Below are positions 7,191-12,894 of a stretch of 29,856 nucleotides of DNA, piece by piece. Below the pieces are notes generated by a model. That model made no database searches. It was not told where the DNA came from and saw nothing but the letters and a program-made list of their open reading frames with translations. The position numbers and the translations under genes are program-made. Origin of the DNA: a virus; the IMG/VR virus record IMGVR_UViG_3300042987_000156, positions 1 to 29,856 of that record; one strand, 5' to 3'. Position 1 is the stretch's first letter, and each line of letters opens with the position of its first letter.

Positions 7191-8414
7191 ATGCCACTAC
7201 GTCCTCCGGCTGGATACATATATCCGGGCTACAACCCGCTGCAAGTTCCTGACGCGCCGACGATTGGTACGGCGACGGGTGGGGATGCACAAGCGTCTGT
7301 TGCGTTTACTGCGCCTACGAATGTGGGCGGCAGTGCTATTTCTGCGTATTACGCTGTTTCTAATCCCGGTCAGATTACTGTAACGGGCGCTTCGTCTCCA
7401 ATCACGGTCACTGGGTTGTCTAATGGCACGGCTTATACGTTCCGAGTATGGGCGTTGAATACGTTCGGCCCATCTCCTTATAGCGCGGCGAGTGGGAGTG
7501 TGACACCTCAAGGGCCTAGAGGATTATTTGGTGGCGGTCAAGTAAGCGGTGCAGCAAACAATACTATTGATTACATAATTACATCTTCGGCAGCAAACGC
7601 TACAGATTTTGGAGATTTGACTGTTGCTAGAAGTGCATTGGGTTCTTGCTCATCATCCACCAGAGGTGTTTGGGCGAATGGAACACCAACGACCAATGTC
7701 ATAGATTATGTAACCATAGCTTCTGCTGGGAATGCTACCGATTTTGGAGACTTGACTCCGTTCACAGACAATTTAGCAGGGTGTTCTAGTTCAACAAGAG
7801 GGTTGTTTGCTGGTGGTGTTGATGCGTTAGGAAACAATCTAAACACGATCAATTACATAACAATAGCGTCCGTTGGAAATTCCACAGATTTCGGCGATTT
7901 GTTGTATACACCATCGTCTTTGGCTTCTTGCTCTTCTACAACCAGAGGGATATTTGCCGGGGGGAATGGTGGTGGACCCACCTACGCCACAGTAAATGTC
8001 ATTAATTATGTAACAATCGCTTCCACCGGCAATGCCACCGACTTCGGAGATTTATATTTAGCAGAACAAGGTCTAGCTGGATGTTCTAATTCCACCAGAG
8101 GGTTGTTTGGAGGTGGAACTATAGCTGGCAGTGGGGGTGCTGGGACTAATGTGATTAGCTATATAACTATTGCGTCCACTGGAAATTCGACCGATTTTGG
8201 TGATTTAACAGTTGTTAGAAATTTAATTGCTGCTTGCTCTAGTTCCACCACGGGTATTTTTGCTGGTGGAACACAACCCGGAGGCGGCAGTCCACCAGTA
8301 AATGTCATGGATTATGTAACGATTTCTGTAACGGGTAACGCCACTGATTTTGGCGATTTAACCGTTGCTAGAGCTTCTTTAGCAGGTTGTTCTGCTGGTC
8401 ACGGAGGTCTCTAA
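7191..8414 (+). CDS. Fibronectin-III plus six-bladed propeller-like receptor-binding protein
   Basis: 407 residues. Residues 1-16 are Pro/Gly/Tyr-rich. Residues about 17-108 form an FN3 domain (PDAPTIGTATGG, ISAYYAVS, ITVTGLSNGTAYTFRVWA, then GPSPYSAAS). From residue 110 the protein has an opening GLFGGG strand and exactly six repeats with consensus N-x-I-D-Y-x-T-I-A-S-x-G-N-A-T-D-F-G-D-L, then a variable Ala-Arg helix or loop, then C-S-S-S-T-R-G-x-F-x-G-G. The last repeat ends C-S-A-G-H-G-G-L. An opening strand plus a truncated last repeat is the usual velcro closure of beta propellers; Kelch or RCC1 types are the closest by pattern. It probably binds host surface glycans. The stop overlaps the next start as TAATG. 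Confidence 0.75.
   Translation: MPLRPPAGYIYPGYNPLQVPDAPTIGTATGGDAQASVAFTAPTNVGGSAISAYYAVSNPGQITVTGASSPITVTGLSNGTAYTFRVWALNTFGPSPYSAASGSVTPQGPRGLFGGGQVSGAANNTIDYIITSSAANATDFGDLTVARSALGSCSSSTRGVWANGTPTTNVIDYVTIASAGNATDFGDLTPFTDNLAGCSSSTRGLFAGGVDALGNNLNTINYITIASVGNSTDFGDLLYTPSSLASCSSTTRGIFAGGNGGGPTYATVNVINYVTIASTGNATDFGDLYLAEQGLAGCSNSTRGLFGGGTIAGSGGAGTNVISYITIASTGNSTDFGDLTVVRNLIAACSSSTTGIFAGGTQPGGGSPPVNVMDYVTISVTGNATDFGDLTVARASLAGCSAGHGGL
8403..8408 (+). promoter_or_regulatory. Shine-Dalgarno GGAGGT embedded in HGGL codons
   Basis: The codons for the two glycines of the terminal His-Gly-Gly-Leu (gga ggt) spell GGAGGT, a full anti-16S match. The GGAGG core is six bases before the ATG at 8414, so the upstream C-terminus also serves as the ribosome binding site. 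Confidence 0.8.
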
Positions 8415-9373
8415 TGCCGTCATATAGCGGAGTCTGGAGTCTTCCAGCGGTATATCAAGCGGTGGCGCAGGGGCAGTGGAATCCTCCTGTGGGTGACAGG
8501 GGATTGTTTGGCGGCGGTCAATTAACTTCTGGCAGCTACTCAAATACGATTGACTATGTCGAAATAGCGACCACTGGTAACGCAACCGATTTTGGTGATC
8601 TGACTGTTGCTTATGCTTTTATTGCATCTTGTGCTTCATCAACACGAGCTTTGTTTTACGCAGGCTACACAGGATCAGTCAACAATACAATTTGTTATGT
8701 GAATATCTTGTCCACAGGAAACGCCCTTGATTTTGGGGACATTTACAACACAACTTATGTTGGTTATGGATGTTCTAATTCAACTCGCGGCATTATGGCA
8801 GGAGGTTTTAATCTTACTGCGTCGGTCAATGTAATTAGCTACATGACCATAGCAACAACAGGAAATTCCGTTGATTTTGGCGATTTAACAGTTGCGCGTT
8901 ATGGTTCACAGTCTTGTGCATCTACAACTAGGGCAGTTTTTGGAAGTGGATATCTCGATCCGCCTGCAACAAATGTGATGGATTACATAACTATTGCAAC
9001 AACTGGCAATGCAACAGATTTTGGCGATTGTGTTCCAATACAAAAGTTGGGTGGTGGATGCGGCTCTTCTACTCGTGGTTTGTTTGGTGGCGATAATGAC
9101 AGCAGCAATGTAATTCAATACATTACGATTGCATCAGTTGGAAACACAACAGATTTTGGTGATTTGATTGATGCTATGGGTAGGAACTGCGGAACATCCA
9201 ACGCAACAAGAGGATTGTTCGCTGCTGGTAGCACAGGCGCTGCCGCCAATACGTCTTTTAATGCAATAAACTATGTGACCATTGCTTCGACGGGGAACGC
9301 CACTGATTTTGGCGACACCTCTGTTGCTAGGTTGGGTTTGACTGGAACATCCAACGCACACGGAGGTCTATAA
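8414..9373 (+). CDS. Six-bladed propeller-like receptor-binding protein
   Basis: 319 residues. The ATG at 8414 is chosen over an in-frame codon at 8387 because it is in a TAATG overlap and has GGAGGT directly upstream. Residues 1-28 contain a G-V-W-S-L-P-A-V motif shared with the next protein. From residue 30 (GLFGGG) there are six repeats of the same family as the previous gene, each centred on D-F-G-D-L; variants here include D-F-G-D-I, D-F-G-D-C and D-F-G-D-T. The last repeat ends S-N-A-H-G-G-L. It is probably one propeller with a short attachment peptide and lacks the FN3 domain of its neighbour. Receptor binding is inferred from context. Confidence 0.75.
   Translation: MPSYSGVWSLPAVYQAVAQGQWNPPVGDRGLFGGGQLTSGSYSNTIDYVEIATTGNATDFGDLTVAYAFIASCASSTRALFYAGYTGSVNNTICYVNILSTGNALDFGDIYNTTYVGYGCSNSTRGIMAGGFNLTASVNVISYMTIATTGNSVDFGDLTVARYGSQSCASTTRAVFGSGYLDPPATNVMDYITIATTGNATDFGDCVPIQKLGGGCGSSTRGLFGGDNDSSNVIQYITIASVGNTTDFGDLIDAMGRNCGTSNATRGLFAAGSTGAAANTSFNAINYVTIASTGNATDFGDTSVARLGLTGTSNAHGGL
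9362..9367 (+). promoter_or_regulatory. Shine-Dalgarno GGAGGT embedded in HGGL codons (second copy)
   Basis: As at 8403, the glycine codons of the terminal His-Gly-Gly-Leu are gga ggt. The GGAGG core lies seven bases before the ATG at 9374. The stop TAA directly abuts the start. Confidence 0.8.
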
Positions 9374-11293
9374 ATGGGAATCGCAGATTGGAACGCGGGG
9401 ATTATCAGGCCAGTGCCTGTAGCTCCTGCTGGCCCATATCAAGACGGTGCAGCTCCCGGTGTATGGACGCTGGATCAAGTGGCTTACTGGCAGAAGCAAG
9501 GGCTGTGGCCTATTGCGGGGAATGCTGCGCCGATTGGGTTGTTTGGTGGGGGTGCAGATTCAGGAGGTTCTGGAATAAATGTAATTGACAGATTACTGCT
9601 GACCACCGCTGGAAATTCAACAGACTTTGGCGACTTGACCGTAAAACGGTATGGCTTGACATCGTGTTCGTCGGCAGTTCGAGGCGTTTTTGCTGGCGGT
9701 TTTAACAGCGACATATCCGCATATCAGAATGTCATTGACTATGTGACGATTGCTACGGCGGGAAATGCTACTGATTTTGGCGATCTGACGCTTGCACGAG
9801 GTGCTGGATTTGCAGGGATGTCGAATTACGTTCGAGGTGCTTTTGCTGGAGGGGCTGGCGCAAGCGGTGACTCCAACATCATCGACTACATCACCATAGC
9901 ATCAACAGGAAATGCAATTGATTTTGGCGATTTATTGTCAGCGCAACAAGGAACCGCTGGGTGTTCGTCATCAACTAGAGGAATTATCGGCGGCGGAAAT
10001 GGCCCAATAAATGTAATTCAGTACATCACAATTGCGTCTACGGGAAACTCAACGGATTTTGGTGACATGACAGTTGCCAGATCGCAGCTGGCGGCTTGTT
10101 CGTCGGAAACGAGGGGTGTGTTTGCTGGTGGAGGAGTAAGCGGGGGAACTCCAAACAATACAATTGACTACATCACTATTGCATCGGCTGGAAACGCAAC
10201 AGATTTTGGGGATATATTAGAAGCGAGACGACAGCTTGCCGGATGCGCTTCATCAACGTCAGGTTTTTTTGCGGGTGGCACTACTAACGGAGCAACGGTT
10301 ACCAACGTAATTCAAACAATAACAATAGCTTCGACTGGAAACTCAACGGACTTTGGCGATTTGACAAATGCAGTGCGTTGGTCAGCTGGTTGCTCCTCCG
10401 CCGCCGCAGCAGTCCAACCCACGCCGACAAGTTCTGCAATGGCGTTGTTTGGGGGTGGTGAAACCACAGCAAATCAAATATCAATTCAATACGTAAATAT
10501 AGCCACTACAGGAAATGCTTTTTTGTTTGGAGATTTAACTGTAGCAAGGGCTTTCACTGGTGCTTGTTCATCTTCGACACGAGGGTTGTTTGGCGGAGGT
10601 AGTGGCCCAACTAACGTAATTGATTACGTAACTATTGCAACTATAGCTAATGGAATTGATTTTGGGGATTTAACGGAAGCTAGAAGATTTCTTGCTGGAT
10701 GTTCTTCTTCCACCAGAGGTGTGTTTGGAGGTGGTAGAACTACAGTAAATGTCAACACAATTGATTATGTAACAATTGCGTCAATTGGTAACGCAACTGA
10801 TTTTGGGGATTTGACAAGCGCTCGGCAAACTTTAGGCGCTTGTTCTTCAACAACGCGTGGATTGTTTGGGGGTGGAGACACCGGCTCTGTATCAAACATC
10901 ATTGATTACATCACGATTGCGTCGGCTGGTAACGCTACAGACTTTGGTGACTTGACCGTAGCTAGGTCAAATTTGTCCGGTTGTTCGTCTGATACAAGAG
11001 GAATTTTTGCTGGTGGATTTGTTACTGCGGTTTCAAATGTAATTGATTATGTAACTATCTCATCAGCCGGAAACGCCACAGATTTTGGTGATTTGACAAT
11101 TGCTAGAAGGTATTTATCTTCTGCGTCTTCATTAACAATCGGCGTGTTTGGTGGTGGTAATGATGGTTCCGCAAATACCAATGTCATCGATTACATCACC
11201 ATTGCTTCAACTGGAAATGCTATAGATTTTGGTGACTTGTCTTTTGTTGTTCAAGGCCAAGCAGCCTGTTCCAACGCCCACGGTGGTTTATAA
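9374..11293 (+). CDS. Double propeller-like receptor-binding protein (6+6 repeats)
   Basis: 639 residues. Residues 1-53 hold a proline-rich start and a G-V-W-T-L-D-Q-V-A-Y-W-x-K-Q-G-L-W-P segment, common in phage fiber attachment regions. Twelve repeats follow, starting with GLFGGG at residue 55. After repeat six the regular C-S-S-S-T-R-G ending is replaced by an Ala/Pro/Thr linker (about residues 340-355), followed by M-A-L-F-G-G-G at residue 356, where a second set of six begins. The second set ends C-S-N-A-H-G-G-L. The simplest reading is two fused six-bladed propellers. The DNA is A+T-rich except at the linker, which is G+C-rich. It probably evolved by duplication and fusion of a single-propeller gene. 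Confidence 0.75.
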   Translation: MGIADWNAGIIRPVPVAPAGPYQDGAAPGVWTLDQVAYWQKQGLWPIAGNAAPIGLFGGGADSGGSGINVIDRLLLTTAGNSTDFGDLTVKRYGLTSCSSAVRGVFAGGFNSDISAYQNVIDYVTIATAGNATDFGDLTLARGAGFAGMSNYVRGAFAGGAGASGDSNIIDYITIASTGNAIDFGDLLSAQQGTAGCSSSTRGIIGGGNGPINVIQYITIASTGNSTDFGDMTVARSQLAACSSETRGVFAGGGVSGGTPNNTIDYITIASAGNATDFGDILEARRQLAGCASSTSGFFAGGTTNGATVTNVIQTITIASTGNSTDFGDLTNAVRWSAGCSSAAAAVQPTPTSSAMALFGGGETTANQISIQYVNIATTGNAFLFGDLTVARAFTGACSSSTRGLFGGGSGPTNVIDYVTIATIANGIDFGDLTEARRFLAGCSSSTRGVFGGGRTTVNVNTIDYVTIASIGNATDFGDLTSARQTLGACSSTTRGLFGGGDTGSVSNIIDYITIASAGNATDFGDLTVARSNLSGCSSDTRGIFAGGFVTAVSNVIDYVTISSAGNATDFGDLTIARRYLSSASSLTIGVFGGGNDGSANTNVIDYITIASTGNAIDFGDLSFVVQGQAACSNAHGGL

Positions 11294-11305: not shown

Positions 11306-12151
11306 ATGTCAAACGATCTAATCATCAGCAATATGCAAACGGCTTTGGAAGTCAAAAAGCCAGAATACAACTTGATGTTGAAGAACATCCAAGACCGTTT
11401 GCCTGCGGTTGCCAAGGACACTAGCAACTTCCACAAGTCTCACTCTCAATTCATGCAGGTGACTTTAGATGTGACGGCAATCACTCCGATCCGCTCCATC
11501 AAGCATACCTTGGCTGAGATTGATCGCACTAAATCAGCCCTGCAAGAAGCCTACGTCAATATGCGTAAGAAGCAGGTCGAACTGAAAAAGAAGCAACGAG
11601 AACTTGAATCCTGCACTGATGAGCTTGACCGCGAACTGCTAGAGATCGAAATCCTTGAACTCAACAGCCACCTCGAAGGTACGCAAAACCATGTGAATGG
11701 CGCATTGCGTAAGATGAACTTCATGGTCAACCAGCACAAACAACTGCTGGAAAAGGTAGGCAAGAACGAAATCACCGAAGAAGATTACGAGCGCGAAGAG
11801 TCTCGCTACCACATCATGACCTGCATGAAGCAGGCATTGAACGCTGCTCGTAGCCGCAACGGTATGATTGATGAAGGCAACCTGATCTACCTGTTCGACT
11901 TAGGGATTAATGCGGCACAAGCGCAAGCTGAGGTCTTTGCTTACCTGAACATGGAGAATCAACTGATCTCTAACGGTCAGGCACCGACCCATGAGATGAC
12001 GATGCGCTGGCTGGAGGCTTGTGCAGACAAGTGGGAGAAAGACCCTGAGACCTTCGCCAAGCGTCGCGGCTTCTCGGTATTTGACCGCTCGTCGTTGACG
12101 AATACGCCGCTCTTAGAGCAGGCACCTGACCCTGACAAGAAGGTGGCGTGA
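11306..12151 (+). CDS. Coiled-coil phage protein, function unknown
   Basis: 281 residues, mostly helical, with a long charged coiled coil at about residues 70-155 (repeated Lys/Glu/Leu heptads such as KKKQRELESCTDELDREL). Residues about 165-235 are a helical domain with no recognised motif; the C-terminus is proline-rich. The start at 11306 has a strong AAGGAGAGA site in its own intergenic gap, so translation does not depend on the propeller gene. Base composition returns to that of the general virion block. It overlaps the glycosyltransferase as TGATG. A chaperone, scaffold or regulatory role is possible but unsupported. Confidence 0.75.
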   Translation: MSNDLIISNMQTALEVKKPEYNLMLKNIQDRLPAVAKDTSNFHKSHSQFMQVTLDVTAITPIRSIKHTLAEIDRTKSALQEAYVNMRKKQVELKKKQRELESCTDELDRELLEIEILELNSHLEGTQNHVNGALRKMNFMVNQHKQLLEKVGKNEITEEDYEREESRYHIMTCMKQALNAARSRNGMIDEGNLIYLFDLGINAAQAQAEVFAYLNMENQLISNGQAPTHEMTMRWLEACADKWEKDPETFAKRRGFSVFDRSSLTNTPLLEQAPDPDKKVA

Positions 12152-12894
12152 TGCACTTGGTTATAGGCACCCCTGCTTATGGCGGCATGATGTGCACGGA
12201 ATACGTGCAGTCGTTGCTTGCTTTGAAGGAAGCCTGTCTCCAGTACAACATCAAGTTGACCTGCATATTCCTTGGTAACGAGTCTTTGATTCAGCGCGGC
12301 AGGAACACGATTGCTTGGCACTTCTTGAATACGGATGCCACGCATTTGATGTTCATTGATGCCGATCAAAAGTTCGTGCCGAACGACATTGCTCGGATGA
12401 TCAAAGCGGACAAGGGGATCATCGCTGGTGCGGTTCCGATGAAAGGTATCAATTGGGATGCGGTCAGAAAAGGAGCGCAGGCAGGCTACCAAGACTTGTA
12501 CAAGTTGACAGGCGTGTTCAATGTGAACAAGTTGCCCGGTCATGAGATGACTGACCCCAATCAGCCGTTTCAAGTCAAACATGCAGGTACTGGGTTCATG
12601 CTGATCCGCCGCGATGTGTTTGAGAAGTTGCGTCCGCATGTGGGTTACTACATGAACGGCGGCTCAACGATCCCTGTACATGCTGAGGTTTACGACTTCT
12701 TCAAAGTACAGAACGTCGATCACGAGCTATTGTCAGAAGACTATAACTTTTGTCATATGTACCGGCAGCACGGCGGTACGGTTTGGGTTGCTCCGTGGTG
12801 CGAACTGGGTCACTTCGGGGCGTATTGTTTTAGTGGGCAGTATGCACAACAAGGAGCTTTTCATGGCACACCAATGCATCAAGTACCGTCTTAA
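12151..12894 (+). CDS. GT-A type glycosyltransferase
   Basis: 247 residues. The N-terminus begins with a beta strand and P-A-Y-G-G loop (LVIGTPAYGGMM), typical of nucleotide-sugar binding. L-I-Q-R-G-R-N is followed by F-I-D-A-D (residues 68-72), the DxD metal/nucleotide-sugar motif of GT-A enzymes. A P-M-K-G-I-N-W motif and a C-terminal G-H-F-G-A-Y-C-F segment match phage-encoded members of this group. It probably transfers a sugar from a nucleotide donor to a protein or glycan; the acceptor is unknown. Its place just after the propeller genes and coiled-coil protein suggests virion fiber or host surface modification. The ATG at 12151 (TGATG overlap) is preferred over the GTG at 12148. Confidence 0.85.
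   Translation: MHLVIGTPAYGGMMCTEYVQSLLALKEACLQYNIKLTCIFLGNESLIQRGRNTIAWHFLNTDATHLMFIDADQKFVPNDIARMIKADKGIIAGAVPMKGINWDAVRKGAQAGYQDLYKLTGVFNVNKLPGHEMTDPNQPFQVKHAGTGFMLIRRDVFEKLRPHVGYYMNGGSTIPVHAEVYDFFKVQNVDHELLSEDYNFCHMYRQHGGTVWVAPWCELGHFGAYCFSGQYAQQGAFHGTPMHQVPS
12851..12856 (+). promoter_or_regulatory. AAGGAG site inside the glycosyltransferase gene
   Basis: AAGGAG lies six bases before the ATG at 12863 and decides the start of the next gene. Initiation there overlaps the glycosyltransferase by 32 bases. Confidence 0.7.

Follow-up and report, generated by a model that had tools for sequence, protein, structure and literature searches.

Beta-propellers are found in several proven or putative receptor-binding proteins of phages, among them the five-bladed Gp45 of phi11, the seven-bladed gp131C of phiKZ and P2 of PRD1 (PMC4901313), which have been described with one propeller per chain. 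It is also already known that environmental phages exchange recognition domains. In metaviromic islands and flexible genes, host-recognition genes are replaced in near-constant phage genomes, and the domains named for these islands are C1q, lectin, tail fibre and lipase (PMC3909814, PMC7468147); a search of the text of these two papers gave no mention of propellers. Two phage proteins also resemble those described here. The Kelch-motif protein of Burkholderia phage BcepSaruman (A0A4D5ZBY9) is likewise predicted to form a kelch-like propeller (TMt 0.85, 22% identity), but it is not known in sets or to be exchanged. Synechococcus phage S-SKS1, which was the only phage in INPHARED with a relative at E 1e-5, encodes a hypothetical protein with kelch-like blades, six ahead of a linker and behind it a further set that is truncated where the record ends, although its identity is only ~33%.

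Analysis of a virus contig of 29,856 bases, which was studied over its full length and is referred to as the window, revealed three adjacent genes, designated gA, gB and gC (Table 1). Unlike the propellers of phi11, phiKZ and PRD1, the members of this family have other blade numbers and occur as tandem, apparently exchangeable sets on several anchors, and in contrast to the metaviromic islands what seems to move is a single folded domain that has defined joints and passes between anchors. As far as was searched, the combination of propeller receptor-binding domains of phages with whole-unit exchange in this form is new. On the basis of sequence comparison and structural models, we consider it likely that gA, gB and gC have the predicted function of modular receptor-binding proteins (adhesins) of a tailed phage, the propellers of which are swapped whole.

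Table 1. Features of the propeller gene cluster and adjoining genes in the window
Feature	Coordinates	Strand	Description	Basis or remarks
Window record			virus contig, 29,856 bases
gA	7191..8414	+	407 aa; MPLRPPAG N-terminal segment, FN3, one predicted six-bladed propeller	ORF, Pfam, AF2
FN3 domain (gA)	7275..7490	+	residues 29-100	Pfam PF00041, E 6.6e-6
Propeller P1 (gA)	7518..8411	+	six predicted kelch-like blades	repeat count, AF2, Foldseek
GGAGGT in gA HGGL codons	8403..8408	+	putative Shine-Dalgarno of gB	5 nt ahead of ATG 8414
gB	8414..9373	+	319 aa; short anchor MPSYSGVWSLPAVYQAVAQGQW, one putative six-bladed propeller	repeat count, relatives' starts
gB anchor	8414..8488	+		conserved-residue codon identity: L010 100%, L019 85%
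Propeller P2 (gB)	8498..9370	+	putative propeller	repeat count; fold via homology to gA, gC
GGAGGT in gB HGGL codons	9362..9367	+	putative Shine-Dalgarno of gC	6 nt ahead of ATG 9374
gC	9374..11293	+	639 aa; anchor, two predicted six-bladed propellers	ORF, AF2, Foldseek
gC anchor (PAGPYQDGAAPGVWTLDQVAYWQKQGLWP)	9374..9532	+	single short helix, residues 33-41	low AF2 confidence
Propeller P3 (gC, first)	9533..10414	+	predicted propeller	repeat count, AF2, Foldseek
Ala/Pro linker P3/P4	10415..10444	+	exchange joint in relatives
Propeller P4 (gC, second)	10445..11290	+	predicted propeller	repeat count, AF2
Coiled-coil-like 281-aa protein (phrog_1409)	11306..12151	+	conserved, adjoins gC	reference for propeller turnover
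GT2-like 248-aa protein (phrog_1574)	12148..12894	+	conserved with previous gene	GT2 match below Pfam cut-off

When the [DL]FGD centres were counted directly, there were 6 repeat copies in gA, 6 in gB and 12 in gC, which agreed with the numbers put forward in the initial annotation. The repeat periods were 45-51 aa with a single larger step of 58 aa; this step coincides with the Ala/Pro linker in gC (AAAVQPTPTSSAM), which divides the 12 repeats 6+6 as had been proposed. All 24 repeats (24/24) could be aligned with one another and followed the pattern FxGG - variable loop - NVIDYVTIAS - TGNATDFGDL - variable loop - LAGCSSSTRG. A chance origin of the repeats is excluded, since there are 24 of ~48 aa with high identity and their count is kept in 301 homologous ORFs. 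Among 1582 unique repeats, the kelch-type Gly-Gly closing strand b was strongly represented (G 0.92 and 0.98), as was the strand c Tyr (Y 0.73), and where strand d of kelch has Trp, the repeats had the F (0.96) of D-F-G-D-L. None of the three proteins matched a Kelch family in Pfam at E <= 0.1. When Pfam and PDB were searched by sequence for a known repeat family, FN3 in gA was the only result (the initial annotation had assigned such a domain to one gene), and structure prediction was therefore needed to obtain the fold. A literature search found no paper describing these repeats.

AlphaFold2 models built with alignments of relatives predicted closed propellers for gA (mean pLDDT 93.7, pTM 0.88) and gC (mean pLDDT 89.6, pTM 0.75). 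Foldseek matched both to six-bladed kelch domains, namely the designed SAKe6, Keap1, KLHL12 and Plasmodium Kelch, with target TM mostly 0.85-0.91, an rmsd of ~2.5 Å over ~300 residues and 10-16% identity. That gA and gC are closed kelch-like six-bladed propellers is therefore supported as a prediction, a kelch-like ring and no beta helix having been returned, and for gB we infer a propeller by homology to gA and gC; the four six-bladed propellers that had been suggested for the locus stand on these two lines of evidence. The likeness to the kelch domains of Keap1, KLHL12 and SAKe extends to six four-stranded blades, the strand-b GG, the strand-c Tyr, a TM of ~0.9 and a chain running from strand b to strand a. 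From this topology, strand b would open the chain and strand a would end it, the last strand completing the first blade. The window proteins differ in being viral, in carrying two propellers per chain (gC) and in being exchanged between genomes. As they have no Pfam Kelch match and DFGDL supplies F in place of the strand-d Trp, they are kelch-like in fold yet outside the Pfam Kelch sequence families. The terminal HGGL, which had been taken as the element closing the propeller, did not behave as such: the last strand of the gA model was formed by residues 398-401 (AGCS), and HGGL followed it as non-strand, which rules it out as the closing strand.

The argument from multiples of six was extended to related contigs, in which 287 of 301 distinct, non-identical complete homologous ORFs contained 6 (182 ORFs), 12 (103) or 18 (2) repeats, so that divisibility by six held across the family. 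The 14 exceptions comprised ORFs of 12 or 6 repeats that had been undercounted, genes broken up into adjacent ORFs, and truncated genes; the first two kinds made up most of them. Counts of 11 in L064, L075 and L083 resulted from one degenerate blade overlooked by the profile. Genes split by a frameshift or stop were found in L040, L050, L060 and L172, the parts of which total 6, 12 or 18 when the interrupted blade is counted, and truncated or disrupted genes in L041/L122 (one contig) and L119. The splits at L060:7699, L050:6177, L172:5134 and L040:5665 fall in or near a b-c loop, and in L060, L050 and L172 a TAATG-like stop-start links the gene parts, with blades totalling 6 or 12. Such genes could represent two-chain propellers with coupled translation, or frameshifts from sequencing or assembly. 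The number of propellers per locus ranged from one (L144) to at least nine (L056). L056 and L065 contain arrays of many single-propeller genes with a different anchor type (RFNTD..LEYYDG..W).

Sequence comparison revealed the modularity typical of receptor-binding proteins, with a constant N-terminal anchor and an exchangeable C-terminal domain. Anchors were of FN3-bearing, short GVW and PAGP-GVW types. The start of the gB anchor is ATG 8414, which overlaps the gA stop by one base; TTG 8387 is merely the first start codon of the ORF and was rejected, the relatives starting with MPSYSGVW. Other domains were also found behind these anchors. In L126 a gC-type anchor is followed by three LamG domains, and in L165 (6268-7989) the gC anchor is fused to an SMP-30/NHL-like repeat domain (SDGTKMYVVGxTNDNVYEYDLSTAWDISTASYVQ), perhaps a different propeller. 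Phage DSL-LC04 encodes LamG domains behind a weaker anchor match (E 0.07).

The window was then aligned with two related loci, L010 and L019. The downstream genes had 99-100% protein identity and 88-95% identity at fourfold sites, and the gB and gC anchors had 73-100% fourfold-site identity. The propellers showed 44-71% protein identity and 23-39% fourfold-site identity, with the exception of the last gC stretch against L010 (52% at fourfold sites); synonymous sites are mostly saturated in the replaced propellers. A pair test was carried out on 43 non-redundant pairs in which the downstream gene had 93-99.9% nucleotide identity; the pairs are statistically non-independent as loci recur across them, and their propeller medians were 57.7-60.7% (56.9% in propeller pairs taken at random), except for four gC single-propeller pairs (median 77.9%). 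The anchor medians of the 43 pairs were 90.2% for gC and 73.6-76.2% for the other two anchors. The region is hypervariable between conserved neighbours in these pairs, and several of them also diverge in flanking sequence farther out than the cluster. Outside it, the window and L010 are strongly different, so the pattern may also have come from spread of the conserved downstream block together with the anchors.

Diversity could in principle be made inside each phage, by a diversity-generating retroelement or by blade-by-blade gene conversion. The DNA of the repeats is similar enough for conversion, and paralogous stretches of 41-68 nt with 88-95% identity occur within a genome. Mutagenesis of loops, however, would not give the saturated synonymous sites of the replaced propellers, and a reverse transcriptase was found in 0/11 related records, some of them fragments. 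Moreover, all 207 cross-locus high-identity matches (identity at least 88% over at least 120 nt; loci from the same or near-identical contigs included) spanned at least 90% of the propeller, none being partial, and hence no single-blade exchange was seen among them. Diversification within the phage is largely refuted by these results and must be regarded as most improbable.

The exchange of whole propellers was seen within genes and between anchors. L130 and L140 have the gC anchor and first propeller in common (98.5%) and differ in the second, whereas L130 and L139 share the second gC propeller (95.8%) and differ in the first; in both cases the switch point is the AAAVQP linker. L141 and L144 have flanks that are 97% identical, but L144 lacks gA and gB and its gC propeller is unrelated. 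In three cases the same propeller (96-98% nucleotide identity) was present on different anchors: FN3-type in L126 and gC-type in L122, gC-type in L123 and FN3-type in L017, and gB-type in L163 and gC-type in L144. Identity in these cases begins near GLFGGG and ends at HGGL, and the junctions of exchange overall were GLFGGG, the gC linker and HGGL. As read from the sequences, the within-gene switches and the anchor changes independently show propellers moving as units, that is, as putative whole-unit exchange cassettes between phages, which would explain why the four propellers of the window are related but diverged. Some of the mosaic contigs could be assembly chimeras. Every contig is metagenomic, and the anchors are short and near-identical in DNA, as would suit chimeric joining at conserved anchors. 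The same arrangement was nevertheless repeated across datasets (L123, L124 and L125; L175 and L176; the window and L009), and the two arrangements at the anchor-change joints have only ~10-15 nt in common, a length by which most assemblers would not be misled. Chimeric assembly is thus a very unlikely source of the apparent swaps.

The genomic context is structural, with tail-fibre-like, adaptor-like and DNA-ejection-type genes nearby, and gA-gC are situated downstream of the tail-fibre-like block. The window encodes proteins of DNA-ejection and lytic-transglycosylase type, and the relative L010 (65 kb) encodes a terminase large subunit, portal, capsid protein, SU10-type adaptor and family A DNA polymerase; this gene content suggests a short-tailed, podovirus-like phage. 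A host search in genome bins gave scattered MAGs only. In nine early proteins scanned from one relative, a PDDEXK nuclease and a helicase were the only recombination-type functions, and no single-strand-annealing recombinase was recognised. The 281-aa protein downstream of gC is 99-100% identical in some relatives whose neighbours are replaced, and also adjoins other fibre types, such as DUF7483 in L044. It is unlikely to be a propeller-specific chaperone, given this identity while the propellers are replaced. The GT2-like protein is kept with the cluster, in the structural region, in many relatives.

Alignment of the 1582 unique repeats showed two variable stretches: columns 5-11, corresponding to the b-c loop, where length also changes, and columns 33-38, which take in the d-a loop and the end of strand d before it. 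Conservation was higher in the turns c-d and a-b. Closely related propellers were compared in 38 independent pairs, and pN/pS was 0.58 in loop columns, which were picked from the long-term variability of the same protein family, and 0.15 elsewhere (Fisher p 8e-39); recent amino-acid changes are concentrated in the b-c and d-a loops. In kelch domains the b-c and d-a loops lie on one face, which Keap1 uses to bind Nrf2, and by analogy with this topology they would share one face here. The bias of change towards the loops fits a recognition surface, while positive selection is unproven by pN/pS; as the loop value is below 1, relaxed constraint accounts for it equally well. The same value could be expected if the propellers decorated the virion or capsid, bound mucus or environmental polysaccharide without specificity, and varied through weak constraint. 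FN3 and LamG modules occur in phage decoration proteins, and gA and gB appear dispensable in the L144 contig, which lacks both within a 97% identical flank. Such a decoration is nonetheless unlikely, because whole-propeller replacement beside ~95% identical downstream genes is the behaviour of a host-recognition island (PMC3909814, PMC7468147) and because the genes follow the tail-fibre-like block.

The codons of HGGL were found to overlap a translation signal. gA ends with CAC GGA GGT CTC TAATG and gB with CAC GGA GGT CTA TAAATG, so that in each the Gly-Gly codons provide the Shine-Dalgarno for the gene that follows. The end of gC reads CAC GGT GGT TTA TAA, and a separate AAGGAG lies behind it. 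In relatives, the terminal GG pair was encoded by GGAGG in 124/151 cases with the next ATG within 11 nt and in 22/131 otherwise (odds ratio 23, p 1e-29), so that codon choice in the terminal HGGL varies with the nearness of the next start. HGGL probably has a structural role too, since the protein motif is kept even without need for a Shine-Dalgarno.

In the reading that we favour, that of modular receptor-binding proteins, a short conserved N-terminal anchor (modelled at low confidence) probably docks each protein to the virion and would be followed by one or two six-bladed kelch-like propellers, whose scaffold would consist of the conserved blade core with the c-d and a-b turns, and whose variable host-contacting surface would be formed by the b-c and d-a loops. 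Phages of the community would swap whole propellers through recombination at joints that are short and conserved (GLFGGG at the start, HGGL at the end and, where two propellers stand in tandem, the AAAVQP linker), and could also transfer them from one anchor type to another. As the HGGL codons supply the next gene's Shine-Dalgarno, an incoming HGGL-ended cassette could bring that signal along. Location on the virion, receptor binding, docking of the anchors and recombination as the agent of exchange are what we infer from these comparisons. The exchange probably serves to alter the bacterial surface recognised. As suggested in the initial annotation, the different propellers might each bind another receptor or assemble into a hetero-oligomeric tip. 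We see an even chance that the locus belongs to a community-wide combinatorial adhesin system, in which standard propellers circulate among uncultivated phages, on any of several anchors and from one to at least nine per locus, with their ends as joints and the C-terminal joint carrying the next ribosome-binding site.

An exchange unit is rarely so well defined, with a fixed blade number, a scaffold with variable loops, exact joints and several anchors. It would offer a model, open to testing, of the way in which phages that lack close cultured relatives keep up with variation of the host surface, and the family provides several hundred naturally occurring six-bladed propellers with a common scaffold, which may serve as a source for learning ligand specificity.
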